Below, one piece after another: positions 1 through 47,700 of a DNA stretch of 64,000 bases; the stretch's first letter is position 1; the number at the start of each line of letters is the position of its first letter. The notes under the pieces are model-generated. The model did not search any database, was not told where the DNA came from, and saw only the letters and a list, made by a program, of their open reading frames with translations. The position numbers and the translations under genes were made by a program. This DNA is from Amphibalanus amphitrite. Taxonomy: Eukaryota; Arthropoda; Thecostraca; Balanomorpha; Balanidae. Location: the NCBI RefSeq assembly GCF_019059575.1, contig NW_024882027.1, positions 1 through 64,000 of the forward strand. The letters are read 5' to 3'.

Positions 1-432
1 GGGCTGGTCAGGCAGCCTGACCGCGGCAAGGCTGACCCGCCGCCAGAGGCCTGACCCGCCGCCAGAGGCCCGATCTGCATCCGCCGGACAGGACAGACGT
101 CGGTCCGGCTTATGATACCGGCTCGGGAACCTAGATCGGTGGGGCGCTGCTCGGCCGCCGGACAGCGGCGTGTGACACCGCATAAATCCGTAATATTGGC
201 GGTGCTGAGGACGCGACAGAGACCCGGGCCGTATCGCTTCTCGATATGTGAGCCGTGGCCTGGCCTCGAATGGGCGGTGAAATCCGACAGTATTCGCAGC
301 CAATCAACCGTCATGAACGATAGACAGACACGCGATTAACACTACCGAATGTAGAGAAACCGCGACTAGTTCTAACCGATGAAATATCACCCTGCTTGCA
401 GCGCGCTCTAACTCCGTTTTTCGTTTGTGCAG

Positions 433-1820
433 GTCTGAGCTGCTCCACCTCGCCGTTGCTTCCCGTGACCGTGAAATCACGGCGCACCTCATCATTCACG
501 GATGCAACGTGAACATCACGGTAAGCACTGAAACCGTGCGACGTTCACTCGCCGCGTAGCGTAGCCGGGTTGTTTGTTTGGGGACGGCAGCATCTCGACG
601 ATGGCGGGGGGGGCACAGCGTCCTAAATGATCCTCGGCCCACTGCGCATCTAGCTGCATCGTTTGCAGTATGGGGACCTAAATCGGCCTCTGGCACTCTA
701 GGTCGACATTCTAAACCCCGATGACCGTACCCCTCGCCCTCGCCCATCTGACCACCATTTTTCTCCTACAGGAGGGTAAGAGCGGCCGCACCCGCTCGCC
801 TCGCCATTGAAATGGGCGACATCGAGATGCTGCGCTTCCTGTCGAGGCGGGCAAGGCCGAGGTGAAACATCCCACGTACGGCGGTCTCAGCGGCTACAGC
901 TGGCGCTGCTCAACGGCAGGAGAGACGTGGCCGAGCTGCTGCTCCACCTGGGCGCGCAAGTGTCGCCACTGCCGATCCGAGAGGGACCCTCTCATCGTCC
1001 GACTCAGAGTCTGAGGTAAGAATTAGAGTCGCTCGGGGGAAAAGTTGATAGAGCCATGTCGCAAGTGTTGATTAGGGACGTGCGTACGGGAATGGCCGTC
1101 GCGGTAATGAGGTGTGGAGATTTTTATTGTTCTTGAAGGAAGAGGGTGGGGTAGATGGTGGGTCGCGACGGGGACCGGACTCAGACTCGAGTCGTCTCTG
1201 GGAGTCCCGGGGCGGCGGGCCAGTCCCGTCGCCCCGCCGCGCTCTCATTAGTCGCCTTTTTGTCGCTGCCGCTCGCGGCTCTCAGGGACGGGCTGTCTGA
1301 GTCGGGGAACCCGCCTAATAAGCACGCGGCGACGGTCCGGCGGGCGCCGTTATTGGAGTGGCTGCGTCGGTCGGCTGTAGCGGCGGCGGGGGGAACTGTC
1401 CCAACTCGCCGACTGGCGTCACGCGCTACCTCTGAATCGAGTCGTCACGAGCGTCACAGTCCCATCGTTTGGCTATAAATAGCTGAGGACTGTGGCCGTG
1501 ACGCCTCGGTGCGGTGAAGTGGCAAACCGCCGCCCGAACCGGCCGGCTTCTGGATCAATCGCTCACGGGTATGGGTGGCCACCTGGCGGGTGGATTAGGA
1601 AGCTTTGCCGCTTATTGCTACAGCTAGGGGCGCTCGTTTTGTTACCTGGCCTAGTGTGAAAATTTTGGAATGGTTTAGCGTGTATTCAACACAATAGTGG
1701 CAGGTTTTTGGTGTGACGTGTCTGACGTCTTATTTCTCTGTTGTTACAGAGCCTGATGAAGGGCGACGATGTCTACAGCGAGCTGCGACTACGTGGCCAG
1801 CCCCTGGTGGCAGCCAATGA
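433..1820 (+). pseudogene. mirror copy of cactus exons 4-6, frameshifted
   Basis: Reverse-complement copy of the last three IkB/cactus exons in the left arm: 433-520, 772-1015 and 1750-1820. Splice sites are kept, but the exons are 1, 5 and 1 bases shorter than their right-arm partners. Exon 4 lost a C in the ankyrin core, exon 5 has several small indels, and exon 6 lost a C just before the stop so the TGA is out of frame. Exons 1-3 have no left-arm copy in the window. This fits a poorly polished fold-back copy better than a decayed paralogue, because the introns match just as closely. Confidence 0.85.
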
Positions 1821-2535
1821 ACTAGTGGATCGTTCTGAAACCGGGGGGTCGGGGACGCGACGGGGTCAATTCGGGAGGGACGGGGAGGGTATGTCGTTTG
1901 GGCGCCACCAGTCGATTTTGACTGGTGTATTTAAAGAAGACTAGAATGTGCGCTGGCGCTGGACGCATTGTGAACGATATTGTCATTGTCTCATTGTAAT
2001 AGTCATCATCACTTGTAAATAATTCATGTTTGATGTCAAACTTGTAGTGGGCTCTGTTACTTGTGGACATGTCCCATGGTTATACATGTTGTATGTTATT
2101 GGCTGTTTCTTGGAGGCCGAACTGAGGAATCACACCACATAAATCTGGGCCAGAAACATGCCGAAAACTAGTGAATCAGGACTCATGAGCGTGGTAGATT
2201 GGTGCTTCTAGTAGAAGCCAAAACATTCACGATGCCGATGGTCACATCCTATTTCTATTTATCAACTGCGTGGGTAGGTACTAGGTAGGTATCTTCCCAC
2301 TTACAATGCACATCACGGTATAAATTGGCAAGATCAAAATGAGGGAAAATCTGCCAACCAATTGACGTGTAAAACCGTTTCTTTGGTGGCCAATAAATAT
2401 TGCAATCTATCATAAGTCTAGAGCCCTGCACACACCCAGGCATACCAACGCAGACTCGAATTCACTCTCTTCGACACGTCCTGTCCCTTGGCCAGCAGAC
2501 CACGCGGTGGCTAGCGGAGCTCGGCCGGCGCCGGG

Positions 2536-2904
2536 TCAGTCGGAGGCCGAGTCCGGTGGCCGCGACGGGTTCTGGGTCTCCTGGAACAGTTCATACAGCT
2601 GCACCAGCTGCTCGGCCGCAGATGGTCCAGCTGCTCCTCGGAGATGTGCGTGCCGATCGGCCGCGCCCCCTTCACACCGCGCACGCCCAGCTGGCGCGCC
2701 AGGTTGAGCGCGTAGCCGGCCCATCCTGGAGGAACAGACCGGCCTCGCGCGCAGGCGCGTCCGATGTCGCCGAAACTCATCGCGCACGTATTGGTCGCCA
2801 AGGGCCTTCAGTTCGGCGGGCAGACCGCGGTGCAGTCGCAGCACTGATTTGTACAACATGCGACCACCACGAAGGCCTGCAGTGTCAGGTCTGGGGCACC
2901 CCAT
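2536..2904 (-). pseudogene. mirror copy of SDHAF3, frameshifted
   Basis: Left-arm reverse-complement copy of the SDHAF3 coding exon. Start and stop are at the same spacing, but compensating small indels throw the frame off just after the ATG (one C missing from a C run) and again from about residue 48 to 98. Only the LYK...RRHR segment and the last 25 or so residues read correctly. Flanking non-coding DNA is equally similar to the right arm, so the damage looks like sequence error in a fold-back copy rather than relaxed selection on a paralogue. Confidence 0.85.
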
Positions 2905-3540
2905 GATGTGGCCAGCACGACCACTGCGGCAGGACCCTGCAAATTATACAATTTAAACCTCAGCAATCAGCATCTCAGTGACAATGTAGGTCGTTAACAC
3001 AAATTGAAATCATACAAAGTTGAAGGTTCAATGTTGAGATGCAAGATATTTAGGTCAATTGAGGTTATGGGAAAACATGATCAAGTGTAAGTTGATAGGA
3101 AGGTACCTATCCCCTTGTCTATTCCTAAATGTATAAATGTGATTATGGTGATGAAGATCATCAAGTATGAGATGGCCATAGTAATACAACTTTCTTGCAG
3201 TGGTGTAAAAATCACCGAACTCTAAGCATAGGTACTAGGTAGGTATTGCATTTGATGAGGGCCCCAGCAAAATACAAGGAAATAGCAAACATGCACAAAT
3301 CAAACATTACATGATACATGTAATGTATGATGTATACATGTATGATGCAATGCTATTGCAATCCAACAAAACTCAATCCTCACGCATGCATAACTTTGAT
3401 AATTAGCAACAAATCAAAATCAATCAGCCTCAATCTTGATGTAATGAACAAACACTTGCCTTGAAATTTGAATCACTGGCTACGTTTCCATGGCACAAGT
3501 TAAGCCGATTTTGAAAAATAAATTTGTTCCATCATAGCAA

Positions 3541-3872
3541 TTTTTTTTTATAAATTTAGCTTGAATGTTTGAATGGACGGATTGACAGAGCCGGAGTCCA
3601 CGCTAAGCAGAGCTTGTTGCGTAGACCCCGACCCCTACCGTCCGATCGCGCAATTCCGGGTAACGGGAGAATTTAGATGCCAAAGTTTAACGTGCCCTTC
3701 AAAGCCGGACACGGCCTGTCCCACTCAACTGACTTCAACTGGCTGCGGCTGCTCCCACCAACCGCAGACCATCCCCGTCAGGAGTCTCATATATCGAGCG
3801 CCGGAGCGTCTCGAACCCGGGCTCTCACTACCGGGAGTCCGATGCTCTACCAACTGAGCTACGGGACAGGCA
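3541..3872 (-). mobile_element. tRNA-derived SINE, mirror of copy 2
   Basis: Left-arm mirror of 42711-43042, with A and B boxes readable on the minus strand at about 3800-3866. Confidence 0.85.
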
Positions 3873-4541
3873 AAATGTAAAAATGTAAATATAGGATTAG
3901 GTGCTAGCTAAAAGTTAAAACCATATATACGCTCATTTTTTGCATAAGGTACCTACCTAAATAGTTTCCGAGTAAAACGCACGTGAAATTTCGCTAAATC
4001 GATTTGAGTGTGTCATGGAAACGTAGTGACTGAGCTTTGCAACAATGGAATTAATTTGTACGCGACAAGGCCTTACCTTGGCCTCATTCACGGCCCAAAT
4101 CACAATAGACCCAAATCCACCCTCTTCTCAATAGCCACAGTGCTAATTCGACATCTGTGGATTTATGTTCTTTTATCAGTATTCGGAGGCACTTATGTAA
4201 TCAATGACCAACGAAAGCATAGAAAGAGCCTTCTGCAATCAGCAGCAGCATGTTTTAGCGTTCTAAGATGCTAGAAATGAACACAAAGTTATGAAAGAAG
4301 AGCGCAATAACCGCATTTATCTGTGCTTCCAGTAAAGACTACCAGATGAAGGAAAGTTGGCCTTCACCTAAAGAAACCTTCACCAGATGAAGTTGACATT
4401 TTACCGGACGCCACTTCATTTCAGTATAGGTAAATACGGAATCTTGGGTAAATAGGCATGATCAAAGGTAAGACCAACTTGTCCAAATCACGTCCAAATG
4501 TTGTATCCAGCCCAGTGCTAATCGTCACCCACCCCATACAC

Positions 4542-6924
4542 CAGTGGTCGGCAGGTCACTCGGGGTTGTGCCCCCTTTTTTAGGCGCCAGGCAGGGCCAT
4601 TACCCCCACCTACCAGACCCCATTGCTGTCACAACCAAGTTTACTGAAATTCCATACCTTTCTGGAACTCTTTGGGTATTTCTGCATTTCCAATGCATCA
4701 AATTTAAAACATGACACTTCCTCTACAAAGCATTTAGTATATCCCATTTAACCCTCGTACATATAGAGGCGGCGGGTGGTTTTTTCGTTAAACGCTCACG
4801 TAAAAGCCGTTGGATCACGACCAAATTGTACCCCCGGCCAATCATTTACCCGGGAATTCCTGAGGCCAGTTTTACCAACAGAAAAATAGCCGCCTGCCGG
4901 AGTTTTTGCCTAAAAACCGCTTCACATACGTAAGCGCGATGAGCATGTAAGTGGATAGGGTTTTACCGTTTACGTTTACGTTTACGTAATCATTGGCTTC
5001 GGAGCGTAAGCGCGATGAGCATGTAAGTGGATAGGGCTTTACCGTTTACGCTCCGTATGTGAAGCGGTCTTAACCGGCACCGCCTGGGCTATTTCCGTAC
5101 CCACGACAGCCTGGGGGGGGGGGGGGGGGGTCGGATCCGACCCCCCCCCTGTTATCTCGAGAACCAATGGTCGTATCGAGCCCCGCGAGGCGGCGTTCGA
5201 AAGGTCTCTACGAGGCCTTCCCAAAGCACTCTTAAGATTTTAAGATTGAGGTCAAATTTCGGGTCAAGGTCAGGTCAAAGGTCAAATTCAGGGGTTTTGC
5301 ATGAATCGGCTTACGGACAGCGGAATCGATAGCTGCTGCTCGAAACTCACCAAAAATGACCTCAAAGGCCTAGTGAAGGTACCATGTGCGTAAAGGGGTC
5401 ATACTAGGTACAGGTCAAGGTCAGGTCAGGTCACGAAAGGTCACGGTTTTCACTTTCTGCTACATGGGCGTGCGGCACATGTTTTATGGCTTATTTTTCA
5501 CGCCGAATCCGATGGTAATGGTTATATGTGACCCCAAGTCACTGTGCTGGTGATAAGTGTGCATTGAAAGCATAAAAAATCGTTTATACTATACATAACT
5601 AAACTAAAGCTAAGAAAAAAGGTCAATTTTTCAACTTTTTAATTTTGACATAAAAATGCACTTTTCTAGACGAGCTTTGTCCCAGGAATCTAGTGGTGCC
5701 ATTTGTTTTCACATGCGATGTTCAGAAGTGCCTCTAATTCACGAAAATGCTTATGACGTCACCATGCCCTATGCATGTTGGAGCTATTTTTTTTTACAAT
5801 TTGGGGGTCAAAAATCAAGATAGAAAGTTGAAATTTGGGGGATCTAATGTTCTAATAGAGCTCTACAACATATATTCCGGTTTTTTGGAAATTCCAAAAA
5901 TTTTGGATTTTATTAGCTGTTTTCTAAAAAATATAGTTTTTGAATTTTTAGGGGTAAAAAAACGCATTTTATGGAAAATCCGAGATAGCCATTTTAAAGA
6001 ACTCGTTGAGCTGCGTCTTTTGATGTCCTTAATTTACAATTTGCTTCAAACCCTGATTTTTGGCGATTTTTTAAACATTTACCACTTTTTGACTAAAAAC
6101 GCCATGTAGTTACATCACTAAAATCGATATATCTAAAAAAAAAAATTGGAATTTTTTTCTTAAAAATCGCACAGGAGACGTCAAATTGATGGGGGAGAAG
6201 GTATGCCAAGTTTCAAGTAGATAGCGAAAGTGGTTCATGAGTTATTCAAGAAAAACGGAGGGGGGGGGGTCGGATCCGACCCCCCCCCCCAGGCGGTCGC
6301 GGGTTAAGGCGAAAAATTCCGGCAGGCAGCTATTTTTCTGTCGGTTAAACTGGCCTCTGGACCCATAATGATCATTGGCTTATGAGCTTTTTCTGGAGGT
6401 CATCTTGAGCCATAAAATCTCACTTCAAGAAGTTATAGCGGGTCCCGATTTTCTCGACACTCGTCTTTGACCTCCGGAATGAGACGAAATGACCAAGGAC
6501 CTTAAAAATGGGCAGCAGCGGCTTCCTATAGTCACGGGTAATACGCTCGTTTTTTTATGCACAGCTCCATCTCAGAGTCCGAGAGGCCGCGGGGGTCCGA
6601 TCGACTCCTCCCCCTTACGTTAGCGGCTGTTGAAACGCCAACAGACGGGCGACGGTTAAAAATTGCAGCTGCTTTTGTACGACTGTACGGAACCGCGGTG
6701 GGATGGTGAGGCGAGCAGCTACGTGAAAATTGGTATCTTATCAATGTGTGCTGTGCCTTTGACCTGGGCTAATCTTTGAACCCTGGGATGCAACAGTCAC
6801 GATGGTTCCATCAATGGAGCCCCTAACTCTAAAAAGATAGGTTTTCTCAGAATCCCTCATTACCCCCACCGAAAGGGTTCCATTACCCCCAAAGGGGGCA
6901 TGCCCCACCATTTGCCGACCCCTG
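4542..6924 (+). mobile_element. hAT-type element, mirror of the GTGTATGG copy
   Basis: Left-arm mirror of 39657-42040, flanked by CCATACAC at 4534-4541 and 6925-6932. Holds the nested piggyBac-like element at 5074-6303. Confidence 0.88.
5074..6303 (+). mobile_element. nested piggyBac-like element, left-arm mirror
   Basis: Mirror of 40278-41510, bracketed by TTAA. The first terminus is one C short (CCGGCACC), one of many single-base arm differences. Confidence 0.8.
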
Positions 6925-7206
6925 CCATACACCGTCACCAGCCCACCACATATCTTCTCCTCCCTCCCTCTGCCCTCCCCATAAGTATCCCAGCTCAGCG
7001 GTCAGATGCATCGGCTGCCGAGTGCCGAGTCTGATCGCGTAGCAGCACTCGCAGCGCTCATGCTGCCGCGGTCCCGCCCACGGTGGTCCCGCCAAGAGTA
7101 CCTATACATATGTCCAGCCGTCCAGCCGGTTTATAGCCTTGGTCCAGCTCCAGCCCCAAGATACCTATAAGAAACTCCGGGCCCGTCCCGGGGTGGGACT
7201 AAATGC

Positions 7207-7537
7207 TTTTTTTTATAAATTTAGCTCGAATGTTTGAATGGACGGATTGACAGAGCCGGCGCCCACGCTAAGCAGAGCTTGTTGCGTAGGCCCCGACCCC
7301 TACCGTCCGATCGCGCAATTCCGGGTAACGGGAGAATTTAGATGCCAAAGTTTAACGTGCCCTTCAAAGCCGGACACGGCCTGTCCCACTCAACTGACTT
7401 CAACTGGCTGCGGCTGCTCCCACCAACCGCAGACCATCCCCGTCAGGAGTCTCAAATGTCGAGCGCCGGAGCGTCTCGAACCCGGGCTCTCACTACCGGG
7501 AGTCCAATGCTCTACCAACTGAGCTACGGGACAGGCA
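7207..7537 (-). mobile_element. tRNA-derived SINE, mirror of copy 1
   Basis: Left-arm mirror of 39045-39374. Confidence 0.85.
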
Positions 7538-7552
7538 AAATGCTTACTAACT

Positions 7553-9037
7553 ACTAAATGCTTACTTCGAAATCTAACCTGCGTTGCGGCATTGGCGGTT
7601 ATGTGCGGCGTGTATGCCGCATGATTAGTAAGCGGCGACCACTAAATTAAAGACTCAAACGCTCCGACCAGTTCTCAATGAATAACACTGCATACCAAAA
7701 ATGTCAACCGCTCTCGTCATAAGATATTTAGCTAATATCTACATCATCATTTTGAACCAAATTAATACTTTCAACTTAACTCACTCATTCCTTCCTTTGT
7801 TGGCTCCAAACAGTCTTTCGATTGTCTGGAAATCGTATGCTAAATCCCGTACCTGTATGCGACTGGTGCATATAAAGGCCGATAAAAGAATTTGAATAGG
7901 CTCTGGCATGCGATTTCCTGGCTACCCAAAAAAGTCTGTTTCAGTCTTGCTATCAAAACATGACCTCGCCCGCACAGGGGGGGGGGGGGTTGATGCAACC
8001 CCCCTACGGTTTTTCGCAAATAACTCGCTTAAAAAGCGGCTGATCGCGACGAAACTTTCAGTACCCTCGCATTGATCAATTTAACACCCACTCTGAAAAT
8101 TTCATGACCCTGACCCAAATGACCTTTGACCTGTGACCTACTTTTCGAGACCATGTTTGGCCGGAACCGCGATTCAGCGTATGTCGGCTCGCATTAGCAG
8201 CGCGTTTGCAGTCTTTTCGTGGTTTCAAGCGTTCAAACATGTGATATGATGTTGCCCCCATGCATTAGGGTGGGTGTCAAGGTCACCTGAAGGTCAGGTC
8301 AGGTCATTGACCTTTGGTGACCTCGGTTCACTTTTTCGAGTTTGACATGTTTCTAGGCCAGCTTTTTCGAGCTGAATTCGAATTAAGCAACCACATGAAC
8401 GTTTACAAAGTAGTTTTGGTGCCTTCGTAACATGTTACGAGGCTGTCAGAGGCGGTTGACACCTACTACAAATACCTGGCAGGACCTCTACTGGTTGACC
8501 TGACCTGACCTAACCCGACCTGGCCTAAATGAATGAAGACATCATCTGTGATCAAAACTAGCATGATATTCGTGATCAGCACCCCGAAAAACCCCAAAGC
8601 AGCCACACTACGACGTTCTAACAGGTCCCAATTTTCCCGCCTTTTGGGTCATTGACCTGACCTGGAAGGTCAACCGATGACCTAGGACCTTAAAATTGGG
8701 TATCATCGGCTTTCTCTCGTCACGGGCAACACGCCCGTTTTTTCCGCGAAGCTCTAGCTTGATCAGGAGCGAAACGGCAAGGGCTTATACCTTATACGTT
8801 CGCGGCTGAGTATTAATTTGGTTCAAAACAATGATGTAGATAAGTTAGTTATTTAAATCTAAATATCCTATGACGAGAGCGATGGACATTTTTGGTATGC
8901 AGTGTTATCCATTGAAAACAGGTCAAAGCTATTGAGTTTTTAATTTAGTGGTCGCCGCTTACTAATCATGCGGCATACACGCCGCACATAACCGCCAATG
9001 CCGCAACGCAGCTAAGATTTCGAAGTAAGCATTTAGT
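7553..9037. mobile_element. long-inverted-repeat element, left-arm mirror
   Basis: Mirror of 37544-39028: inverted repeats at about 7553-7765 and 8811-9037 around the TGACCT-rich core. Confidence 0.6.
7968..8810 (+). mobile_element. TGACCT-rich C-tract element, mirror of copy B
   Basis: Left-arm mirror of 37773-38618. Confidence 0.65.
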
Positions 9038-9038
9038 C

Positions 9039-11411
9039 CAGGGGTCGGCAAATGGTGGGGCATGCCCCCTTTGGGGGTAATGGAACCCTTTCGGTGGGGG
9101 TAATGAGGGATTCTGAGAAAACCTATCTTTTTAGAGTTAGGGGCTCCATTGATGGAACCATCGTGACTGTTGCATCCCAGGGTTCAAAGATTAGCCCAGG
9201 TCAAAGGCACAGCACACATTGATAAGATACCAATTTTCACGTAGCTGCTCGCCTCACCATCCCACCGCGGTTCCGTACAGTCGTACAAAAGCAGCTGCAA
9301 TTTTTAACCGTCGCCCGTCTGTTGGCGTTTCAACAGCCGCTAACGTAAGGGGGAGGAGTCGATCGGACCCCCGCGGCCTCTCGGACTCTGAGATGGAGCT
9401 GTGCATAAAAAAACGAGCGTATTACCCGTGACTATAGGAAGCCGCTGCTGCCCATTTTTAAGGTCCTTGGTCATTTCGTCTCATTCCGGAGGTCAAAGAC
9501 GAGTGTCGAGAAAATCGGGACCCGCTATAACTTCTTGAAGTGAGATTTTATGGCTCAAGATGACCTCCAGAAAAAGCTCATAAGCCAATGATCATTATGG
9601 GTCCAGAGGCCAGTTTAACCGACAGAAAAATAGCTGCCTGCCGGAATTTTTCGCCTTAACCCGCGACCGCCTGGGGGGGGGGGTCGGATCCGACCCCCCC
9701 CCCCCTCCGTTTTTCTTGAATAACTCATGAACCACTTTCGCTATCTACTTGAAACTTGGCATACCTTCTCCCCCATCAATTTGACGTCTCCTGTGCGATT
9801 TTTAAGAAAAAAATTCCAATTTTTTTTTAGATATATCGATTTTAGTGATGTAACTACATGGCGTTTTTAGTCAAAAAGTGGTAAATGTTTAAAAAATCGC
9901 CAAAAATCAGGGTTTGAAGCAAATTGTAAATTAAGGACATCAAAAGATGCAGCTCAACGAGTTCTTTAAAATGGCTATCTCGGATTTTCCATAAAATGCG
10001 TTTTTTACCCCTAAAAATTCAAAAAACTATATTTTTTAGAAAACAGCTAATAAAATCCAAAATTTTTGGAATTTCCAAAAAACCGGAATATATGTTGTAG
10101 AGCTCTATTAGAACATTAGATCCCCCAAATTTCAACTTTCTATCTTGATTTTTGACCCCCAAATTGTAAAAAAATAGCTCCAACATGCATAGGGCATGGT
10201 GACGTCATAAGCATTTTCGTGAATTAGAGGCACTTCTGAACATCGCATGTGAAAACAAATGGCACCACTAGATTCCTGGGACAAAGCTCGTCTAGAAAAT
10301 GCATTTTTATGTCAAAATTAAAAAGTTGAAAAATTGACCTTTTTTCTTAGCTTTAGTTTAGTTATGTATAGTATAAACGATTTTTTATGCTTTCAATGCA
10401 CACTTATCACCAGCACAGTGACTTGGGGTCACATATAACCATTACCATCGGATTCGGCGTGAAAAATAAGCCATAAAACATGTGCCGCACGCCCATGTAG
10501 CAGAAAGTGAAAACCGTGACCTTTCGTGACCTGACCTGACCTTGACCTGTACCTAGTATGACCCCTTTACGCACATGGTACCTTCACTAGGCCTTTGAGG
10601 TCATTTTTGGTGAGTTTCGAGCAGCAGCTATCGATTCCGCTGTCCGTAAGCCGATTCATGCAAAACCCCTGAATTTGACCTTTGACCTGACCTTGACCCG
10701 AAATTTGACCTCAATCTTAAAATCTTAAGAGTGCTTTGGGAAGGCCTCGTAGAGACCTTTCGAACGCCGCCTCGCGGGGCTCGATACGACCATTGGTTCT
10801 CGAGATAACAGGGGGGGGGGTCGGATCCGACCCCCCCCCCCAGGCTGTCGTGGGTACGGAAATAGCCCAGGCGGTGCCGGGTTAAGACCGCTTCACATAC
10901 GGAGCGTAAACGGTAAAGCCCTATCCACTTACATGCTCATCGCGCTTACGCTCCGAAGCCAATGATTACGTAAACGTAAACGTAAACGGTAAAACCCTAT
11001 CCACTTACATGCTCATCGCGCTTACGTATGTGAAGCGGTTTTTAGGCAAAAACTCCGGCAGGCGGCTATTTTTCTGTTGGTAAAACTGGCCTCAGGAATT
11101 CCCGGGCAAATGATTGGCCGGGGGTACAATTTGGTCGTGATCCAACGGCTTTTACGTGAGCGTTTAACGAAAAACCACCCGCCGCCTCTATATGTACGAG
11201 GGTTAAATGGGATATACTAAATGCTTTGTAGAGGAAGTGTCATGTTTTAAATTTGATGCATTGGAAATGCAGAAATACCCAAAGAGTTCCAGAAAGGTAT
11301 GGAATTTCAGTAAACTTGGTTGTGACAGCAATGGGGTCTGGTAGGTGGGGGTAATGGCCCTGCCTGGCGCCTAAAAAGGGGGCACAACCCCGAGTGACCT
11401 GCCGACCACTG
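9039..11411 (-). mobile_element. hAT-type element, mirror of the GACTAAAT copy
   Basis: Left-arm mirror of 35171-37542, flanked by ATTTAGTC at 9031-9038 and 11412-11419. Holds the nested piggyBac-like element at 9660-10881. Confidence 0.88.
9660..10881 (-). mobile_element. nested piggyBac-like element, left-arm mirror
   Basis: Mirror of 35701-36921, bracketed by TTAA at 9656-9659 and 10882-10885. Confidence 0.8.
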
Positions 11412-11426
11412 ATTTAGTCTCACCCC

Positions 11427-12030
11427 CCGTCCCGCCCGCCGGTACAGGGGGGGAGGGGGGGGGGCCGGGGAGGGGTGATGCAACCCCCCTAAGGTTTTTC
11501 GCGAATAACTCGCGTAAAAAGCGGCTGATCACGACGAAACTTTCAGGACCCTAGCATTGATCAATTTTACACCTACCCTAAAAATTTCATGACCCTGACC
11601 CAAATGACCTTTGACCTGTGACCTCTTTTCCGAGACCATGTTTGGCCGGAATCGCGATTCGGCGTATGTCGGCTCGCATTAGCCGCGCGTTTGCAAGCTT
11701 TTCGTGGTTTCAAACATTTAAAAATGTTACTTGATGTTGCTCCCTTGCATTAGGGTGGGTGTCAAGGTCACCTGAAGGTCAGGTCAGGTCATTGACCTTT
11801 GGTGACCTCGGTTCACTTTTTCGAGTTTTACATGTTTCATAGGCTAGTTTTTGGAGCTGAATTCGAATTTAGCAACCATTTGAACATTTACGAAGTAGTT
11901 TTGGTGCCTTCGTAACATGTTACGAAGCTGTCAGAGGCGGATGACAGGTACTACGAATACCCGTCACGACCCCTACCGGTTGACCTGACATGGCCTGACC
12001 CGACCTGGTGACCTAAACTTTTACCCGACA
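11427..12030 (+). mobile_element. TGACCT-rich C-tract element, mirror of copy A
   Basis: Left-arm mirror of 34556-35150, with the same half-site triplet on the opposite strand. Confidence 0.65.
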
Positions 12031-12392
12031 AATAATGACGGACTTCCTTTGCAGTAGCGGCAGAACACCTTCAGGGGGGCACTGCCAACTTTTGGTCCCA
12101 TTCTTTCCATGCAACGCCCATAGGGCTAATGTTAAAATGCCAAAATCAAAGAGGGGCACGGTGCCCCGGTGCCCTCCCCGTTCTGCCGCCTATGTTCCTT
12201 TGCTGATTTTTTTTTTTACGAAGTCGCTTACCGCGTGATACTACGTTACCCAGGGCTCAATTTAGACGGCGCAGGGGGGGGGGGGGGGGGGATCAGTCAG
12301 CCCCAACCGCGGCCCGGCACGGGTGGCGCCGAGTCCTAACCGGGCCCGGGGAATAGGAAAGTATACCAGTTTCATTCAACATGGACTTTTAA

Positions 12393-23285: not shown

Positions 23286-23286
23286 G

Positions 23287-34189: not shown

Positions 34190-34555
34190 TTAAAAGTCCA
34201 TGTTGAATGAAACTGGTATACTTTCCTATTCCCCGGGCCCGGTTAGGACTCGGCGCCACCCGTGCCGGGCCGCGGTTGGGGCTGACTGATCCCCCCCCCC
34301 CCCCCCCCTGCGCCGTCTAAATTGAGCCCTGGGTAACGTAGTATCACGCGGTAAGCGACTTCGTAAAAAAAAAAAATCAGCAAAGGAACATAGGCGGCAG
34401 AACGGGGAGGGCACCGGGGCACCGTGCCCCTCTTTGATTTTGGCATTTTAACATTAGCCCTATGGGCGTTGCATGGAAAGAATGGGACCAAAAGTTGGCA
34501 GTGCCCCCCTGAAGGTGTTCTGCCGCTACTGCAAAGGAAGTCCGTCATTATTTGT

Positions 34556-35150: not shown

Positions 35151-35543
35151 GACGGGGGGTGAGACTAAATCAGTGGTCGGCAGGTCACTCGGGGTTGTGC
35201 CCCCTTTTTAGGCGCCAGGCAGGGCCATTACCCCCACCTACCAGACCCCATTGCTGTCACAACCAAGTTTACTGAAATTCCATACCTTTCTGGAACTCTT
35301 TGGGTATTTCTGCATTTCCAATGCATCAAATTTAAAACATGACACTTCCTCTACAAAGCATTTAGTATATCCCATTTAACCCTCGTACATATAGAGGCGG
35401 CGGGTGGTTTTTCGTTAAACGCTCACGTAAAAGCCGTTGGATCACGACCAAATTGTACCCCCGGCCAATCATTTGCCCGGGAATTCCTGAGGCCAGTTTT
35501 ACCAACAGAAAAATAGCCGCCTGCCGGAGTTTTTGCCTAAAAA

Positions 35544-35694
35544 CCGCTTCACATACGTAAGCGCGATGAGCATGTAAGTGGATAGGGTTTTACCGTTTAC
35601 GTTTACGTTTACGTAATCATTGGCTTCGGAGCGTAAGCGCGATGAGCATGTAAGTGGATAGGGCTTTACCGTTTACGCTCCGTATGTGAAGCGG
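35544..35694. repeat. 151-base inverted repeat with an internal direct duplication
   Basis: Bounded by CCGCTTCACATACG and CGTATGTGAAGCGG. Inside, a segment beginning GTAAGCGCGATGAGCATGTA and ending in TTTACCGTTTACG is present twice, separated by a (GTTTAC) hexamer run. Other copies, in the other hAT elements, at about 4916-5067, 10888-11038 and 41517-41667. Confidence 0.75.
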
Positions 35695-35700
35695 TCTTAA

Positions 35701-36921
35701 CCCGGCACCGCCTGGGCTATTTCCGTACCCACGACAGCCTGGGGGGGGGGGTCGGATCCGACCCCCCCCCCTGTTATCTCGAGAACCAATGGTCGTATCG
35801 AGCCCCGCGAGGCGGCGTTCGAAAGGTCTCTACGAGGCCTTCCCAAAGCACTCTTAAGATTTTAAGATTGAGGTCAAATTTCGGGTCAAGGTCAGGTCAA
35901 AGGTCAAATTCAGGGGTTTTGCATGAATCGGCTTACGGACAGCGGAATCGATAGCTGCTGCTCGAAACTCACCAAAAATGACCTCAAAGGCCTAGTGAAG
36001 GTACCATGTGCGTAAAGGGGTCATACTAGGTACAGGTCAAGGTCAGGTCAGGTCACGAAAGGTCACGGTTTTCACTTTCTGCTACATGGGCGTGCGGCAC
36101 ATGTTTTATGGCTTATTTTTCACGCCGAATCCGATGGTAATGGTTATATGTGACCCCAAGTCACTGTGCTGGTGATAAGTGTGCATTGAAAGCATAAAAA
36201 ATCGTTTATACTATACATAACTAAACTAAAGCTAAGAAAAAAGGTCAATTTTTCAACTTTTTAATTTTGACATAAAAATGCATTTTCTAGACGAGCTTTG
36301 TCCCAGGAATCTAGTGGTGCCATTTGTTTTCACATGCGATGTTCAGAAGTGCCTCTAATTCACGAAAATGCTTATGACGTCACCATGCCCTATGCATGTT
36401 GGAGCTATTTTTTTACAATTTGGGGGTCAAAAATCAAGATAGAAAGTTGAAATTTGGGGGATCTAATGTTCTAATAGAGCTCTACAACATATATTCCGGT
36501 TTTTTGGAAATTCCAAAAATTTTGGATTTTATTAGCTGTTTTCTAAAAAATATAGTTTTTTGAATTTTTAGGGGTAAAAAACGCATTTTATGGAAAATCC
36601 GAGATAGCCATTTTAAAGAACTCGTTGAGCTGCATCTTTTGATGTCCTTAATTTACAATTTGCTTCAAACCCTGATTTTTGGCGATTTTTTAAACATTTA
36701 CCACTTTTTGACTAAAAACGCCATGTAGTTACATCACTAAAATCGATATATCTAAAAAAAAATTGGAATTTTTTTCTTAAAAATCGCACAGGAGACGTCA
36801 AATTGATGGGGGAGAAGGTATGCCAAGTTTCAAGTAGATAGCGAAAGTGGTTCATGAGTTATTCAAGAAAAACGGAGGGGGGGGGGGTCGGATCCGACCC
36901 CCCCCCCCAGGCGGTCGCGGG
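35701..36921 (+). mobile_element. piggyBac-like element nested in the first hAT
   Basis: TTAA at 35697-35700 and 36922-36925 brackets termini CCCGGCACCGCCTGGG and CCCAGGCGGTCGCGGG. The body is the same as the Syt14 intron insertion. G-run/TCGGATCCGA/C-run palindromes lie near both ends (about 35741-35771 and 36876-36908). Confidence 0.82.
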
Positions 36922-37543
36922 TTAAGGCGAAAAATTCCGGCAGGCAGCTATTTTTCTGTCGGTTAAACTGGCCTCTGGACCCATAATGATCATTGGCTTA
37001 TGAGCTTTTTCTGGAGGTCATCTTGAGCCATAAAATCTCACTTCAAGAAGTTATAGCGGGTCCCGATTTTCTCGACACTCGTCTTTGACCTCCGGAATGA
37101 GACGAAATGACCAAGGACCTTAAAAATGGGCAGCAGCGGCTTCCTATAGTCACGGGTAATACGCTCGTTTTTTTATGCACAGCTCCATCTCAGAGTCCGA
37201 GAGGCCGCGGGGGTCCGATCGACTCCTCCCCCTTACGTTAGCGGCTGTTGAAACGCCAACAGACGGGCGACGGTTAAAAATTGCAGCTGCTTTTGTACGA
37301 CTGTACGGAACCGCGGTGGGATGGTGAGGCGAGCAGCTACGTGAAAATTGGTATCTTATCAATGTGTGCTGTGCCTTTGACCTGGGCTAATCTTTGAACC
37401 CTGGGATGCAACAGTCACGATGGTTCCATCAATGGAGCCCCTAACTCTAAAAAGATAGGTTTTCTCAGAATCCCTCATTACCCCCACCGAAAGGGTTCCA
37501 TTACCCCCAAAGGGGGCATGCCCCACCATTTGCCGACCCCTGG

Positions 37544-39028
37544 ACTAAATGCTTACTTCGAAATCTTAGCTGCGTTGCGGCATTGGCGGTTATGTGCGGC
37601 GTGTATGCCGCATGATTAGTAAGCGGCGACCACTAAATTAAAAACTCAATAGCTTTGACCTGTTTTCAATGGATAACACTGCATACCAAAAATGTCCATC
37701 GCTCTCGTCATAGGATATTTAGATTTAAATAACTAACTTATCTACATCATTGTTTTGAACCAAATTAATACTCAGCCGCGAACGTATAAGGTATAAGCCC
37801 TTGCCGTTTCGCTCCTGATCAAGCTAGAGCTTCGCGGAAAAAACGGGCGTGTTGCCCGTGACGAGAGAAAGCCGATGATACCCAATTTTAAGGTCCTAGG
37901 TCATCGGTTGACCTTCCAGGTCAGGTCAATGACCCAAAAGGCGGGAAAATTGGGACCTGTTAGAACGTCGTAGTGTGGCTGCTTTGGGGTTTTTCGGGGT
38001 GCTGATCACGAATATCATGCTAGTTTTGATCACAGATGATGTCTTCATTCATTTAGGCCAGGTCGGGTTAGGTCAGGTCAGGTCAACCAGTAGAGGTCCT
38101 GCCAGGTATTTGTAGTAGGTGTCAACCGCCTCTGACAGCCTCGTAACATGTTACGAAGGCACCAAAACTACTTTGTAAACGTTCATGTGGTTGCTTAATT
38201 CGAATTCAGCTCGAAAAAGCTGGCCTAGAAACATGTCAAACTCGAAAAAGTGAACCGAGGTCACCAAAGGTCAATGACCTGACCTGACCTTCAGGTGACC
38301 TTGACACCCACCCTAATGCATGGGGGCAACATCATATCACATGTTTGAACGCTTGAAACCACGAAAAGACTGCAAACGCGCTGCTAATGCGAGCCGACAT
38401 ACGCTGAATCGCGGTTCCGGCCAAACATGGTCTCGAAAAGTAGGTCACAGGTCAAAGGTCATTTGGGTCAGGGTCATGAAATTTTCAGAGTGGGTGTTAA
38501 ATTGATCAATGCGAGGGTACTGAAAGTTTCGTCGCGATCAGCCGCTTTTTAAGCGAGTTATTTGCGAAAAACCGTAGGGGGGTTGCATCAACCCCCCCCC
38601 CCCCTGTGCGGGCGAGGTCATGTTTTGATAGCAAGACTGAAACAGACTTTTTTGGGTAGCCAGGAAATCGCATGCCAGAGCCTATTCAAATTCTTTTATC
38701 GGCCTTTATATGCACCAGTCGCATACAGGTACGGGATTTAGCATACGATTTCCAGACAATCGAAAGACTGTTTGGAGCCAACAAAGGAAGGAATGAGTGA
38801 GTTAAGTTGAAAGTATTAATTTGGTTCAAAATGATGATGTAGATATTAGCTAAATATCTTATGACGAGAGCGGTTGACATTTTTGGTATGCAGTGTTATT
38901 CATTGAGAACTGGTCGGAGCGTTTGAGTCTTTAATTTAGTGGTCGCCGCTTACTAATCATGCGGCATACACGCCGCACATAACCGCCAATGCCGCAACGC
39001 AGGTTAGATTTCGAAGTAAGCATTTAGT
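37544..39028. mobile_element. element with about 220-base terminal inverted repeats
   Basis: 37544-37772 (ACTAAATGCTTACTTCGAAA...AATTAATACT) is the imperfect reverse complement of 38812-39028. The core between them holds TGACCT-rich copy B. Similar GC-rich sequence outside both ends (GACGGGGGGTGAGACTAAAT before the hAT, GCATTTAGTCCCACCCCGGG after the SINE) suggests the inverted repeats once reached further and were split by the hAT and the SINE. Mirror at 7553-9037. Confidence 0.6.
37773..38618 (-). mobile_element. TGACCT-rich C-tract element, copy B
   Basis: Related to copy A (34556-35150), with the same order of blocks and a C-run/GTTGCATCAACC palindromic end near 38580-38605. Contains AGGTCA half-sites in series with one-base spacing (38442-38461). 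Borders are approximate. Mirror at about 7968-8810. Confidence 0.65.
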
Positions 39029-39044
39029 AGTTAGTAAGCATTTT

Positions 39045-39374
39045 GCCTGTCCCGTAGCTCAGTTGGTAGAGCATTGGACTCCCGGTAGTGAGAGCCCGGG
39101 TTCGAGACGCTCCGGCGCTCGACATTTGAGACTCCTGACGGGGATGGTCTGCGGTTGGTGGGAGCAGCCGCAGCCAGTTGAAGTCAGTTGAGTGGGACAG
39201 GCCGTGTCCGGCTTTGAAGGGCACGTTAAACTTTGGCATCTAAATTCTCCCGTTACCCGGAATTGCGCGATCGGACGGTAGGGGTCGGGGCCTACGCAAC
39301 AAGCTCTGCTTAGCGTGGGCGCCGGCTCTGTCAATCCGTCCATTCAAACATTCGAGCTAAATTTATAAAAAAAA
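39045..39374 (+). mobile_element. tRNA-derived SINE, copy 1
   Basis: The head (about 39049-39120) is tRNA-like, with an A box (TAGCTCAGTTGGTAGAGC) and B box (GGTTCGAGAC) for RNA polymerase III. The T-arm does not pair well, so it is not a functional tRNA. A body of about 250 bases containing GGCACGTTAAACTTTGG follows, and it ends in TTTATAAAAAAAA. AAGCATTT on both sides may be the target duplication. Confidence 0.85.
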
Positions 39375-39656
39375 GCATTTAGTCCCACCCCGGGACGGGC
39401 CCGGAGTTTCTTATAGGTATCTTGGGGCTGGAGCTGGACCAAGGCTATAAACCGGCTGGACGGCTGGACATATGTATAGGTACTCTTGGCGGGACCACCG
39501 TGGGCGGGACCGCGGCAGCATGAGCGCTGCGAGTGCTGCTACGCGATCAGACTCGGCACTCGGCAGCCGATGCATCTGACCGCTGAGCTGGGATACTTAT
39601 GGGGAGGGCAGAGGGAGGGAGGAGAAGATATGTGGTGGGCTGGTGACGGTGTATGG

Positions 39657-42040
39657 CAGGGGTCGGCAAATGGTGGGGCATGCCCCCTTTGGGGGTAATG
39701 GAACCCTTTCGGTGGGGGTAATGAGGGATTCTGAGAAAACCTATCTTTTTAGAGTTAGGGGCTCCATTGATGGAACCATCGTGACTGTTGCATCCCAGGG
39801 TTCAAAGATTAGCCCAGGTCAAAGGCACAGCACACATTGATAAGATACCAATTTTCACGTAGCTGCTCGCCTCACCATCCCACCGCGGTTCCGTACAGTC
39901 GTACAAAAGCAGCTGCAATTTTTAACCGTCGCCCGTCTGTTGGCGTTTCAACAGCCGCTAACGTAAGGGGGAGGAGTCGATCGGACCCCCGCGGCCTCTC
40001 GGACTCTGAGATGGAGCTGTGCATAAAAAAACGAGCGTATTACCCGTGACTATAGGAAGCCGCTGCTGCCCATTTTTAAGGTCCTTGGTCATTTCGTCTC
40101 ATTCCGGAGGTCAAAGACGAGTGTCGAGAAAATCGGGACCCGCTATAACTTCTTGAAGTGAGATTTTATGGCTCAAGATGACCTCCAGAAAAAGCTCATA
40201 AGCCAATGATCATTATGGGTCCAGAGGCCAGTTTAACCGACAGAAAAATAGCTGCCTGCCGGAATTTTTCGCCTTAACCCGCGACCGCCTGGGGGGGGGG
40301 GTCGGATCCGACCCCCCCCCCTCCGTTTTTCTTGAATAACTCATGAACCACTTTCGCTATCTACTTGAAACTTGGCATACCTTCTCCCCCATCAATTTGA
40401 CGTCTCCTGTGCGATTTTTAAGAAAAAAATTCCAATTTTTTTTTTTAGATATATCGATTTTAGTGATGTAACTACATGGCGTTTTTAGTCAAAAAGTGGT
40501 AAATGTTTAAAAAATCGCCAAAAATCAGGGTTTGAAGCAAATTGTAAATTAAGGACATCAAAAGACGCAGCTCAACGAGTTCTTTAAAATGGCTATCTCG
40601 GATTTTCCATAAAATGCGTTTTTTTACCCCTAAAAATTCAAAAAACTATATTTTTTAGAAAACAGCTAATAAAATCCAAAATTTTTGGAATTTCCAAAAA
40701 ACCGGAATATATGTTGTAGAGCTCTATTAGAACATTAGATCCCCCAAATTTCAACTTTCTATCTTGATTTTTGACCCCCAAATTGTAAAAAAAAATAGCT
40801 CCAACATGCATAGGGCATGGTGACGTCATAAGCATTTTCGTGAATTAGAGGCACTTCTGAACATCGCATGTGAAAACAAATGGCACCACTAGATTCCTGG
40901 GACAAAGCTCGTCTAGAAAAGTGCATTTTTATGTCAAAATTAAAAAGTTGAAAAATTGACCTTTTTTCTTAGCTTTAGTTTAGTTATGTATAGTATAAAC
41001 GATTTTTTATGCTTTCAATGCACACTTATCACCAGCACAGTGACTTGGGGTCACATATAACCATTACCATCGGATTCGGCGTGAAAAATAAGCCATAAAA
41101 CATGTGCCGCACGCCCATGTAGCAGAAAGTGAAAACCGTGACCTTTCGTGACCTGACCTGACCTTGACCTGTACCTAGTATGACCCCTTTACGCACATGG
41201 TACCTTCACTAGGCCTTTGAGGTCATTTTTGGTGAGTTTCGAGCAGCAGCTATCGATTCCGCTGTCCGTAAGCCGATTCATGCAAAACCCCTGAATTTGA
41301 CCTTTGACCTGACCTTGACCCGAAATTTGACCTCAATCTTAAAATCTTAAGAGTGCTTTGGGAAGGCCTCGTAGAGACCTTTCGAACGCCGCCTCGCGGG
41401 GCTCGATACGACCATTGGTTCTCGAGATAACAGGGGGGGGGTCGGATCCGACCCCCCCCCCCCCCCCCCCAGGCTGTCGTGGGTACGGAAATAGCCCAGG
41501 CGGTGCCGGGTTAAGACCGCTTCACATACGGAGCGTAAACGGTAAAGCCCTATCCACTTACATGCTCATCGCGCTTACGCTCCGAAGCCAATGATTACGT
41601 AAACGTAAACGTAAACGGTAAAACCCTATCCACTTACATGCTCATCGCGCTTACGTATGTGAAGCGGTTTTTAGGCAAAAACTCCGGCAGGCGGCTATTT
41701 TTCTGTTGGTAAAACTGGCCTCAGGAATTCCCGGGTAAATGATTGGCCGGGGGTACAATTTGGTCGTGATCCAACGGCTTTTACGTGAGCGTTTAACGAA
41801 AAACCACCCGCCGCCTCTATATGTACGAGGGTTAAATGGGATATACTAAATGCTTTGTAGAGGAAGTGTCATGTTTTAAATTTGATGCATTGGAAATGCA
41901 GAAATACCCAAAGAGTTCCAGAAAGGTATGGAATTTCAGTAAACTTGGTTGTGACAGCAATGGGGTCTGGTAGGTGGGGGTAATGGCCCTGCCTGGCGCC
42001 TAAAAAGGGGGCACAACCCCGAGTGACCTGCCGACCACTG
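39657..42040 (-). mobile_element. second hAT-type element, opposite orientation, 8-base duplication GTGTATGG
   Basis: Same element as 35171-37542, inserted in the reverse orientation, with its own 8-base target duplication GTGTATGG at 39649-39656 and 42041-42048. It carries the same nested insertion (40278-41510), so both copies derive from an already composite element. One C-run near 41455 is about twice as long as in the first copy. Mirror at 4542-6924. Confidence 0.88.
40278..41510 (-). mobile_element. piggyBac-like element nested in the second hAT
   Basis: TTAA at 40274-40277 and 41511-41514; same termini and palindromes as 35701-36921, in reverse orientation. Confidence 0.82.
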
Positions 42041-43042: not shown

Positions 43043-43679
43043 TTGCTATGATGGAACAAATTTATTTTTCAAAATCGGCTTAACTTGTGCCATGGAAACG
43101 TAGCCAGTGATTCAAATTTCAAGGCAAGTGTTTGTTCATTACATCAAGATTGAGGCTGATTGATTTTGATTTGTTGCTAATTATCAAAGTTATGCATGCG
43201 TGAGGATTGAGTTTTGTTGGATTGCAATAGCATTGCATCATACATGTATACATCATACATTACATGTATCATGTAATGTTTGATTTGTGCATGTTTGCTA
43301 TTTCCTTGTATTTTGCTGGGGCCCTCATCAAATGCAATACCTACCTAGTACCTATGCTTAGAGTTCGGTGATTTTTACACCACTGCAAGAAAGTTGTATT
43401 ACTATGGCCATCTCATACTTGATGATCTTCATCACCATAATCACATTTATACATTTAGGAATAGACAAGGGGATAGGTACCTTCCTATCAACTTACACTT
43501 GATCATGTTTTCCCATAACCTCAATTGACCTAAATATCTTGCATCTCAACATTGAACCTTCAACTTTGTATGATTTCAATTTGTGTTAACGACCTACATT
43601 GTCACTGAGATGCTGATTGCTGAGGTTTAAATTGTATAATTTGCAGGGTCCTGCCGCAGTGGTCGGTGCTGGCCACATC
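43043..43679. other. AT-rich upstream region of SDHAF3
   Basis: No gene is seen. It probably holds the SDHAF3 promoter or a 5' UTR intron, since an acceptor-like TTTGCAG ends at 43646. A CATACATGTATA/TACATGTATCATG cluster at about 43240-43275 forms short inverted repeats. Confidence 0.4.
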
Positions 43680-44048
43680 ATGGGGGTGCCCCAGACGCTG
43701 ACCCACGTGCAGTCGGTGCGCATGTTGTACAAATCAGTGCTGCGACTGCACCGCGGTCTGCCCGCCGAACTGAAGGCCCTTGGCGACCAATACGTGCGCG
43801 ATGAGTTTCGGCGACATCGGGACGCGCCTGCGCGCGAGGCCGGTCTGTTCCTCCAGGAGTGGGCCGGCTACGCGCTCAACCTGGCGCGCCAGCTGGGCGT
43901 GCGCGGTGTGAAGGGGGCGCGGCCGATCGGCACGCACATCTCCGAGGAGCAGCTGGACCATCTGCGGCCCGAGCAGCTGGTGCAGCTGTATGAACTGTTC
44001 CAGGAGACCCAGAACCCGTCGCGGCCACCGGACTCGGCCTCCGACTGA
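43680..44048 (+). CDS. Sdhaf3: succinate dehydrogenase assembly factor 3 (ACN9/LYRM10 family), 122 aa
   Basis: Small mitochondrial matrix protein of the LYR family that helps mature the iron-sulfur subunit of complex II. The 122-residue frame is close to the human length of about 125. It shows the family's N-terminal signature: degenerate LYR motif LYK at 16-18, then LRLHRGLP (21-28), [14 protein letters not shown] (34-47) and FLQEW (57-61). The C-terminal part (ISEEQLDHL, then [12 protein letters not shown]) also fits. The ATG has A at -3 and G at +4. A good splice acceptor (TTTGCAG) ends at 43646, so an upstream 5' UTR exon is likely. The gene converges with cactus: the two stops are 723 bases apart. 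No LINE or MITE interrupts it. Recognition rests on the motif series and length. Confidence 0.93.
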   Translation: MGVPQTLTHVQSVRMLYKSVLRLHRGLPAELKALGDQYVRDEFRRHRDAPAREAGLFLQEWAGYALNLARQLGVRGVKGARPIGTHISEEQLDHLRPEQLVQLYELFQETQNPSRPPDSASD

Positions 44049-44567
44049 CCCGGCGCCGGCCGAGCTCCGCTAGCCACCGCGTGGTCTGCTGGCCAAGGGA
44101 CAGGACGTGTCGAAGAGCAGTGAATTCGAGTCTGCGTTGGTATGCCTGGGTGTGTGCAGGGCTCTAGACTTATGATAGATTGCAATATTTATTGGCCACC
44201 AAAGAAACGGTTTACACGTCAATTGGTTGGCAGATTTTCCCTCATTTTGAGTCTTGCCAATTTATACCGTGATGTGCATTGTAAGTGGGAAGATACCTAC
44301 CTAGTACCTACCCACGCAGTTGATAAATAGAAATAGGATGTGACCATCGGCATCGTGAATGTTTTGGCTTCTACTAGAAGCACCAATCTACCACGCTCAT
44401 GAGTCCTGATTCACTAGTTTTCGGCATGTTTCTGGCCCAAGATTTATGTGGTGGTGTGATTCCTCAGTTCGGCCTCCAAGAAACAGCCAATAACATACAA
44501 CATGTATTAACATGGGACATGTCCACAAGTAACAGAGCCCACTACAAGTTTGACATCAAACATGAAT

Positions 44568-44595
44568 TATTTACAAGTGATGATGACTATTTACA
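44568..44595 (-). promoter_or_regulatory. two Pumilio-type motifs (UGUAAAUA) in the cactus 3' UTR
   Basis: On the cactus strand, TGTAAATA occurs at 44595-44588 and again at 44575-44568, about 180-205 bases after the TGA. Both match the Pumilio consensus UGUANAUA exactly. The left-arm copy has lost an A from the first motif. The 3' UTR extent is inferred. Confidence 0.45.
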
Positions 44596-44771
44596 ATGAG
44601 ACAATGACAATATCGTTCAACAATGCGGTCCAGCGCCAGCGCACATTCTAGTCTTCTTTAAATACACCAGTCAAAATCGACTGGTGGCGCCCAAACGACA
44701 TACCCTCCCCGTCCCTCCCGAATTGACCCCGTCGCGTCCCCGACCCCCCGGTTTCAGAACGATCCACTAGT

Positions 44772-47700
44772 TCATTGGGCTGCCACCAGGGGCTGGCCAC
44801 GTAGTCGCAGCTCGCTGTAGACATCGTCGCCCTTCATCAGGCTCTGTAACAACAGAGAAATAAGACGTCAGACACGGTCACACCAAAAACCTGCCACTAT
44901 TGTGTTGAATACACGCTAAACCATTCCAAAATTTCACACTAGGCCAGGTAACAAAACGAGCGCCCCTAGCTGTAGCAATAAGCGGCAAAGCTTCCTAATC
45001 CACCCGCCAGGTGGCCACCCATACCCGTGAGCGATTGATCCAGAAAGCCGGCCGGTTCGGGCGGCGGTTTGCCACTTCACCGCACCGAGGCGTCACGGCC
45101 ACAGTCACTCAGCTATTTATAGCCAAACGATGGGACTGTGACGCTCGTGACGACTCGATTCAGAGGTAGCGCGTGACGCCAGTCGGCGAGTTGGGACAGT
45201 TCCCCGCCGCCGCCGCTACAGGCCGACCGACGCAGCCACTCCAATAACGGCGCCCGCCGGACCGTCGCCGGCGGTGCTTATTAGGCGGGGTTCCCCGACT
45301 CAGACAGCCCGTCCCTGAGAGCCGCGAGCGGCAGCGACAAAAAGGCGACTAATGAGGAGCGCGGCGGGGCGACGGGACTGGCCCGCACGCCCCGGGACTC
45401 CCAGAGACGACTCGAGTCTGAGTCCGGAGTCCCCGTCGCGACCCACCATCTACCCGCACCCTCTTCCTTCAAAGAACAATAAAAATCTCCACACCTCATT
45501 ACCGCGACGGCCATTCCCCGTACGCACGTCCCTAATCAACACCTTGCGACATGGCTCTATCAACTTTTCCCGCCGAGCGACTCTAATTCTTACCTCAGAC
45601 TCTGAGTCGGACGATGAGAGGTCCATCTCGGAGTCAGGCAGTGGCGACACTTGCGCGCCCAGGTGGAGCAGCAGCTCGGCCACGTCTCTCCTGCCGTTGA
45701 GCAGCGCCAGCTGGTAGCCGCTGAGACCGCCGTACGTGGGGATGTTCACCTCGGCCTTGCCCGCCTCGACCAGGAAGCGCAGCATCTCGATGTCGCCCAT
45801 TTCAATGGCGAGGACGAGCGGGGTGCGGCCGCTCTTACCCTCCTGTAGGCGGAGAAAAATGGTGGTCAGATGGGGCGAGGGCGAGGGGTACGGTCATCGG
45901 GGTTTAGAATGTCGACCTAGAGTGCCAGAGGCCGATTTAGGTCCCCATACTGCAAACGATGCAGCTAGATGCGCAGTGGGCCGAGGGATCATTTAGGACT
46001 CTGTGCCCCCTCCGCCATCGTCGAGATGCATGCCGTCCCCAAACAAACAACCCGGCTACGCTACGCGGCGAGTGAACGTCGCACGGGTTTCAGTGCTTAC
46101 CGTGATGTTCACGTTGCATCCGTGAATGATGAGGTGCGCCGTGATTTCACGGTCACGGGAAGCAACGGCGAGGTGGAGGCAGCTCAGACCTGCAACAAAC
46201 GAAAAACGGAGTTAGAGCGCGCTGCAAGCAGGGTGATATTTCATCGGTTAGAACTAGTCGCGGTTTCTCTACATTCGTGTAGTGTTAATCGCGTGTCTGT
46301 CTATCGTTCATGACGGTTGATTGGCTGCGAATACTGTCGGAGTTCACCGCCCATTCGAGGCCAGGCCACGGCTCACATATCGAGAAGCGATACGGGCCCG
46401 GGTCTCTGTCGCGTCCTCAGCACCGGCCAATATTACGGATTTATGCGGTGTCACACGCCGCTGTCCGGCGGCCGAGCAGCGCCCCACCGATCTAGGTTCC
46501 CGAGCCGGTATCATAAGCCGGACCGACCGGTCCTGTCCTGTCCGGCGGAGGCAGATCGGGCCTCTGGCGGCGGGTCAGGCCTCTGGCGGCGGGTCAGGCC
46601 TTGGCCGCGGGTCAGGCGGCCTGACCAGCCCCTGGCTGTCCCCGCCGGGTTCGCTGCCAGCGCCAGTCACGAGTGGAGAACGGGCGCTGGCTCCCAGTCG
46701 CCACATTCCTCAGCCAGCTGGAAATCCCGGCCGGAGCACGACAGCCTGTCTCCACGGCCCGTCTCGGGCCCGCCCCCTGGCCGTTTTCCGGGCGAGGGGA
46801 GGGGGAAGGGTGCAGCTGCACCGGCCGGGGCAGGTGGTCACCCGGCCGCCGCCGCCACCGCTGCCGCCCGACAGGCTCGTTTTTACGTGTTGAAGGAAAT
46901 CCCTGGCCGAGACCGACTCGTGATAGGTTTTCACTGACAGTGAGGACATGCCGTGATAGCCGAACGTGCCGGGCGCTGGCGTTCGTAGCGTGACCATCGT
47001 CCAACACGCTTCCGGAGCTGTCCCGAAGACGCCCAGCGTACGCGCACGAACCAGACTGCCGTGGAGGGGATATGATTTAAGCACATTCCAGGGGGCCCGC
47101 GGCAGTGCAATGGTCAGATTAGGGTCCGCCCGACACGCTGCTACGCCATAACATGCAATGGTATACAGGAACAAAATTGGTCAGAACCGGCGGATTCCGG
47201 CCCGTCACGGTTCAGTTTTCGGCTCGGAGCTGACGTTGGGGGAACTACCGACCGCTGTCCGATGACCTTATCACGGCCACACGACAGGCCAGGGGCGACC
47301 CCTGACCTCAGGCAGCGCCACAGGCTTCCGCCGCGGCTTTGTGTGTCGTCAAACGGTGGGGTCGGGTCGGTCCCGCCGACACCGACCTAGTCCCTCTGAG
47401 AACCACAATGACGCACGGCGGCGACCGCCTGGGACAGAACGTGACTGACTAACTGAGGAGGCCGGCCGGCCCTGACCGCCGGAGCTGGTGACTGGGCGCG
47501 CGTGCAGACTGATTCAGCCGCCGCCGTCGGTGGGCCGGCCGCGTATTTCGGGCACGCCCGCCGGCCGGCCGCTCCGATTTAGCGCAGCTGGCAACCGACG
47601 ACTGGGAAAACCAGTTCAAAAATACGCGCCGCCGCCGACGCTGCGCGCGCGCCGACTACCAAATAAGGTCATGCGGCGGGCCCAGGCGCGTGCCAGCCGC

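Follow-up and report, generated by a model that had tools for sequence, protein, structure and literature searches.

A 46.6-kb palindrome at the start of an Amphibalanus amphitrite contig and its probable origin in assembly

The palindrome and its position on the contig

This report concerns a large palindrome in the assembled genome of Amphibalanus amphitrite, and the genes that lie at its outer border. The window, by which we mean the whole stretch of DNA analysed, is 64,000 nucleotides long and forms the beginning of contig C530 (G000:C530:1-64000). The contig comprises 477,738 bases and belongs to an assembly of 807.6 Mb in 2,644 contigs; base 1 of the window is the first base of the contig. 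Compared with its own reverse complement, the window gives a single inverted self-match, in which 1-46631 pairs with 46631-1 at 99.39% identity. Aligned arm to arm, the left arm (1-23280, minus strand) pairs with the reverse complement of the right arm (23292-46631, plus strand) at 99.4%. Each arm is ~23.3 kb long, and the turn between them is the 11 bases at 23281-23291. In an edit-distance scan of the axis, loops of 9-12 bases (5 edits in 25) do slightly better than a blunt fold of zero bases (7 edits in 25), which is not claimed. Chance is excluded as the origin of a match of this length. The original prediction spoke of a near-perfect palindrome of 46.6 kb that turns on about 11 bases, and so it measures. 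It also had the arms matching through everything, transposons and their target duplications included. The match is unbroken through exons, introns and repeats; as to target duplications, matching 8-bp flanks were seen at two left-arm transposon copies.

Because base 1 is the contig start, and 46631 is the mirror of base 1, it is the beginning of the contig that fixes the 46.6-kb span, and 46631 is no biological border. The outer border of the left arm being the contig end, no unique DNA flanks that arm. Positions 46000-47500, searched against the assembly itself, return three matches: the right arm, the left arm (1-618) and C502:251307-252781 (95%), which lies on a second contig to which we return below. 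The axis falls within a short 133-bp satellite array (22829-23745), with ~3.4 units in each arm.

Genes at the outer border

A minus-strand gene spans position 46631, with exons in both the flank and the right arm. From its domain order, a DSGxxS-like motif and an acidic tail, we take it to encode an IkB-like protein. Its exons are given here in our own numbering. Exon 3 (48841-49117; the 5' edge is approximate) lies in the unduplicated flank and encodes ankyrin repeats. Exon 4 (46101-46189) and exon 5 (45594-45842), the latter with further ankyrin repeats and the acidic tail, lie in the right arm, where exons 3, 4 and 5 join in frame across GT-AG introns. The copies in the left arm break this frame: exon 4 is 88 nt there rather than 89, and exon 5 is 244 nt rather than 249. 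The probable 5' part of the gene is an open frame at 51793-52236, also on the minus strand and in the unduplicated flank, which carries a degron-like motif, DSGLDSGFLS, and would connect to exon 3.

A second gene is represented in the right arm by a plus-strand exon, open at 43617-44045, that encodes a LYR protein (Pfam Complex1_LYR_2, E 1.2e-15), presumably an SDHAF3-like one. Its left-arm copy (~2539-2862) is frameshifted. Pfam was applied to six proteins, four from gene frames and two from repeat-region frames. It identified ankyrin repeats in the two IkB-like exons tested, and no match in either the N-terminal frame (51793-52236) or the two repeat-region frames. A search of the PDB with the ankyrin exon returned 379 distinct sequences; the best 60 are natural and designed ankyrin-repeat proteins, and none is named as an IkB.

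A diverged, unfolded relative of the locus

The contig C502 was compared with the window over two stretches, 190001-270000 and 150001-190000. It matches window positions 43190-53232 as one piece (10,200 aligned, 94.0%), running straight through 46631. The inner part of the arm is represented by four blocks, window 24343-30946 on C502:219185-224307, in the same order and orientation, and by a fifth short collinear block at window 25331-25640. A further short match extends the correspondence to window 23873, opposite C502:219011 and ~580 bases from the axis. The right arm is collinear with C502, then, over its inner (23873-30946) and outer (43190-46631) parts. Across five collinear blocks the two contigs differ by 472 substitutions in 14,597 aligned columns, or 3.2%.

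Beyond the position that corresponds to the axis, C502 shows 69 kb (150001-219000) with no inverted arm: over this stretch the sole matches of at least 300 bases to the window are fragments of a single repeat family, at about 189-190 and 217 kb. C502:190001-270000 gives no match to the 133-bp satellite. In the same 80 kb, the only inverted self-matches of more than 400 bases belong to a 1.5-kb group at 263.5-265.0 kb. That group (263475-264998) is a small inverted repeat in its own right, made of ~0.6-kb units with 96% identity.

C502 is probably the other haplotype of the locus, or possibly a paralogous segment. Whichever its origin, C502 has a single copy each of the arm's inner and outer parts, both in the same orientation, and no palindrome. 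It provides an independent, unfolded version of the locus, albeit a diverged one that has no clear counterpart of window 30947-42039. In place of that interval C502 carries ~22 kb, mainly repeat-matched and mostly other DNA, a large insertion/deletion difference between the contigs. A smaller insertion difference is the 1.2-kb element at 28886-30103 of C530, which is missing from C502 between 223447 and 223456.

Differences between the arms

The arms differ at 123 places: 17 substitutions, 80 sites with bases missing from the left arm and 26 with bases missing from the right. Insertions and deletions (indels) account for 106 of the 123. In left-arm coordinates, the outer noisy zone (1-3000) has 69 differences (23 per kb), 52 of them places with bases missing from the left arm; the middle (3001-21000) has 26 (1.4 per kb), with not one substitution in these 18 kb; and the part next to the axis (21001-23280) has 28 (12 per kb). 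The two end zones, the outer 3 kb and the last 2.28 kb, hold 97 of the 123 differences (binomial p ~1e-39, for zone limits set after inspection of counts per 1 kb). At these noisy ends the left arm lacks bases at 71 places and has extra bases at 9. The single bases missing there are C in 35 cases, G in 7, T in 13 and A in 7; the excess of C over G has a p of ~3e-6 given the base composition, and is found in the outer zone (28 to 6) and at the axis (7 to 1).

Under natural mutation, substitutions should outnumber indels, and a strand bias of this kind is not expected. Errors in reads taken from a single strand could give both the excess of indels and the bias. The bias among the missing bases is what one-strand reads would be expected to leave, and so favours an artefact.

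Two sources bear on which arm is correct. Of the 123 differences, 75 could be scored against C502. Over the outer 3 kb, where 68 were scored, C502 agrees with the right arm at 63 and with the left at 2, with 3 ties; in the middle zone it agrees with the right arm in 2 of 3. Repeats inside the window scored 29 differences, by votes that are not independent and that draw on copies in either arm; in the middle zone (n = 13) these favour the right arm in 6 cases and the left in 5, and are mixed in 2.

Origin of the palindrome

The palindrome is real in the assembled sequence, and almost certainly not in the animal. We consider it very probable that the left arm is a spurious inverted copy of the right, which would be the authentic locus, and that it arose when a fold-back long read extended a contig that had stalled in the 133-bp satellite. 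The true sequence of C530 would leave the flank, cross the right arm and enter the satellite, which is probably the place where it was lost. Assembly would have stalled there, and then continued on a fold-back long read—one strand followed by its complement, as a single molecule. Such a read would append the 23.3 kb a second time, inverted, and the contig would stop where the read ends, at base 1. The middle of the added arm would be polished by ordinary reads. Its outer end would escape polishing, since genuine reads of that region extend into the flank and align better with the right arm. The axis would escape it too, since genuine reads from there exit into other DNA. Together, a fold-back read and a stall in the satellite would explain why no DNA flanks the left arm, why the turn is short and why substitutions are lacking, as well as the noise at the end and at the axis, the strand bias and the broken exons.

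Fold-back reads made up ~0.55-0.6% of Oxford Nanopore Technologies genomic reads in one survey (PMC12870357), which also gives an example that has nothing between its segments, and describes fold-backs as able to tangle assembly graphs. In one honey-bee long-read assembly, tandem repeats made up nearly all of the contig ends (PMC11212449). Nanopore reading of inverted copies has been described as missing base calls from the junction onward (PMC7229812).

A real and very young 23-kb inverted duplication, present in C530's haplotype only, with its 11-base turn in the 133-bp satellite and a truncated IkB-like copy, would likewise show no substitutions in 18 kb, and would be compatible with C502. 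We nevertheless regard it as very improbable. Its left arm is tied to no unique DNA, base 1 being the contig start. A natural palindrome would be expected to have unique sequence flanking both arms, which is not found here, although the assembly may merely stop at base 1, so that this does not by itself disprove a duplication. Most of the differences are indels, they cluster towards the contig end and the axis, and in these noisy zones they show a strand bias; dense frameshifts in the outer 3 kb lie beside 18 kb without a substitution. A real duplication would require the contig end, the pattern of noise and the broken exons all to be coincidental. The original prediction had already preferred an artefact to a recent duplication; the contig end, the unfolded C502, the end-loaded indels and the frameshifted left-arm exons argue the same way. 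Of the artefact readings, we favour the fold-back version. The other one that it proposed, two haplotypes joined tail to tail, is rejected. Two or more diverged versions of the locus do exist in the assembly (C530 and C502), and a false join could arise from a shared satellite. Given the 3.2% divergence of C530 from C502, however, ~580 substitutions would be predicted in the 18 kb in which none is seen, and the 1.2-kb insertion (~28886-30103) is present in both arms and absent at that place in C502. Such a join at the satellite we find scarcely credible. This refutation applies at the divergence seen between C530 and C502, the latter being only probably a haplotype of the locus; a near-homozygous stretch would be needed instead.

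The artefact might have had a somewhat different source. Palindromic reads also arise from amplification, and from missed or missing SMRTbell adapters (PMC6218980). A whole-genome-amplification chimera or a PacBio missed-adapter read, rather than a nanopore fold-back, nonetheless strikes us as the less likely form of the artefact: at the noisy ends of the left arm, missing-base places exceed extra-base places by 71 to 9, an excess that is more typical of nanopore. As reported in the survey of fold-backs, three PacBio samples showed none that were systematic (PMC12870357).

Several observations weigh against an artefactual left arm, or at least against a simple version of it. All of the evidence comes from the assembled sequence. 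In the middle zone it is the right arm that lacks bases at 17 of the 26 differences, and both arms therefore carry errors. Of the 4 differences that C502 scores near the axis, 3 favour the left arm, and the internal repeats there (n = 16) favour the right arm in 8 cases and the left in 4, with 4 tied or mixed. The outer zone is clearly faulty in the left arm, then, and the axis zone is noisy with no clear side. Noise near the axis could also occur in a true palindrome, to judge from one account of reading inverted copies (PMC7229812). C502, if it is another haplotype as is probable, is compatible with a duplication confined to the haplotype of C530. Finally, window 30947-42039 (~11 kb) has no clear collinear block in C502 among matches of at least 400 bases. 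This gap leaves the odds of an artefact unaffected, because the case for one rests on the outer part of the arm, the axis side and the error profile.

Relation to other palindromes

The fold-back artefact reads described in the Breakinator paper (PMC12870357) resemble this palindrome in being inverted copies of the same place, near-symmetric and with little or no sequence at the turn. Here, too, the arms are one place on opposite strands, with little spacer (an 11-base turn to 23.3-kb arms), and the presumably spurious arm has no unique DNA beyond base 1. This palindrome differs in being known from an assembled contig, not from a read. Palindromes from whole-genome amplification, as treated in the Pacasus paper (PMC6218980), are likewise inverted repeats of the same stretch; the window itself bears no sign of the method by which the library was made. 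Among the earlier gorilla Y sequences that it compares, the same paper reports inverted duplications in large number. Palindromes P1-P8 of the human Y chromosome (arms of 8.7-1450 kb; PMC6218980) are similar to the present one in their long, highly identical inverted arms. Unlike them, it lacks an outer flank on one side, turns on 11 bases and has an unfolded counterpart in a related contig.

If the left arm is an artefact, C530 holds a false 23-kb duplicate with broken copies of IkB-like and SDHAF3-like exons, and should carry a quality warning. Annotation could count these broken exon copies as pseudogenes or as recent paralogues. The combination of a contig end, end-loaded and strand-biased indels and an unfolded related contig provides signs that can be used on other palindromes without raw reads.

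Other features

No tRNA was found in the window, and no Rfam match at the gathering score. On C502, positions 215064-216500, searched against the assembly for a contig that would carry on beyond the axis, proved to be high-copy: stretches of ~361 bases recur in many contigs, mostly with 98-99% identity (at least 40 matches scored of 1437 candidates). The two left-arm transposon copies mentioned above, which we take to be hAT-like, are 2.4 kb long and lie at 4542-6924 and 9039-11411, with mirror copies in the right arm. They are opposite in orientation and ~99.1% identical. Each sits between matching 8-bp flanks (CCATACAC; GACTAAAT), and their ends are CAGTGGTCGGCA-like.

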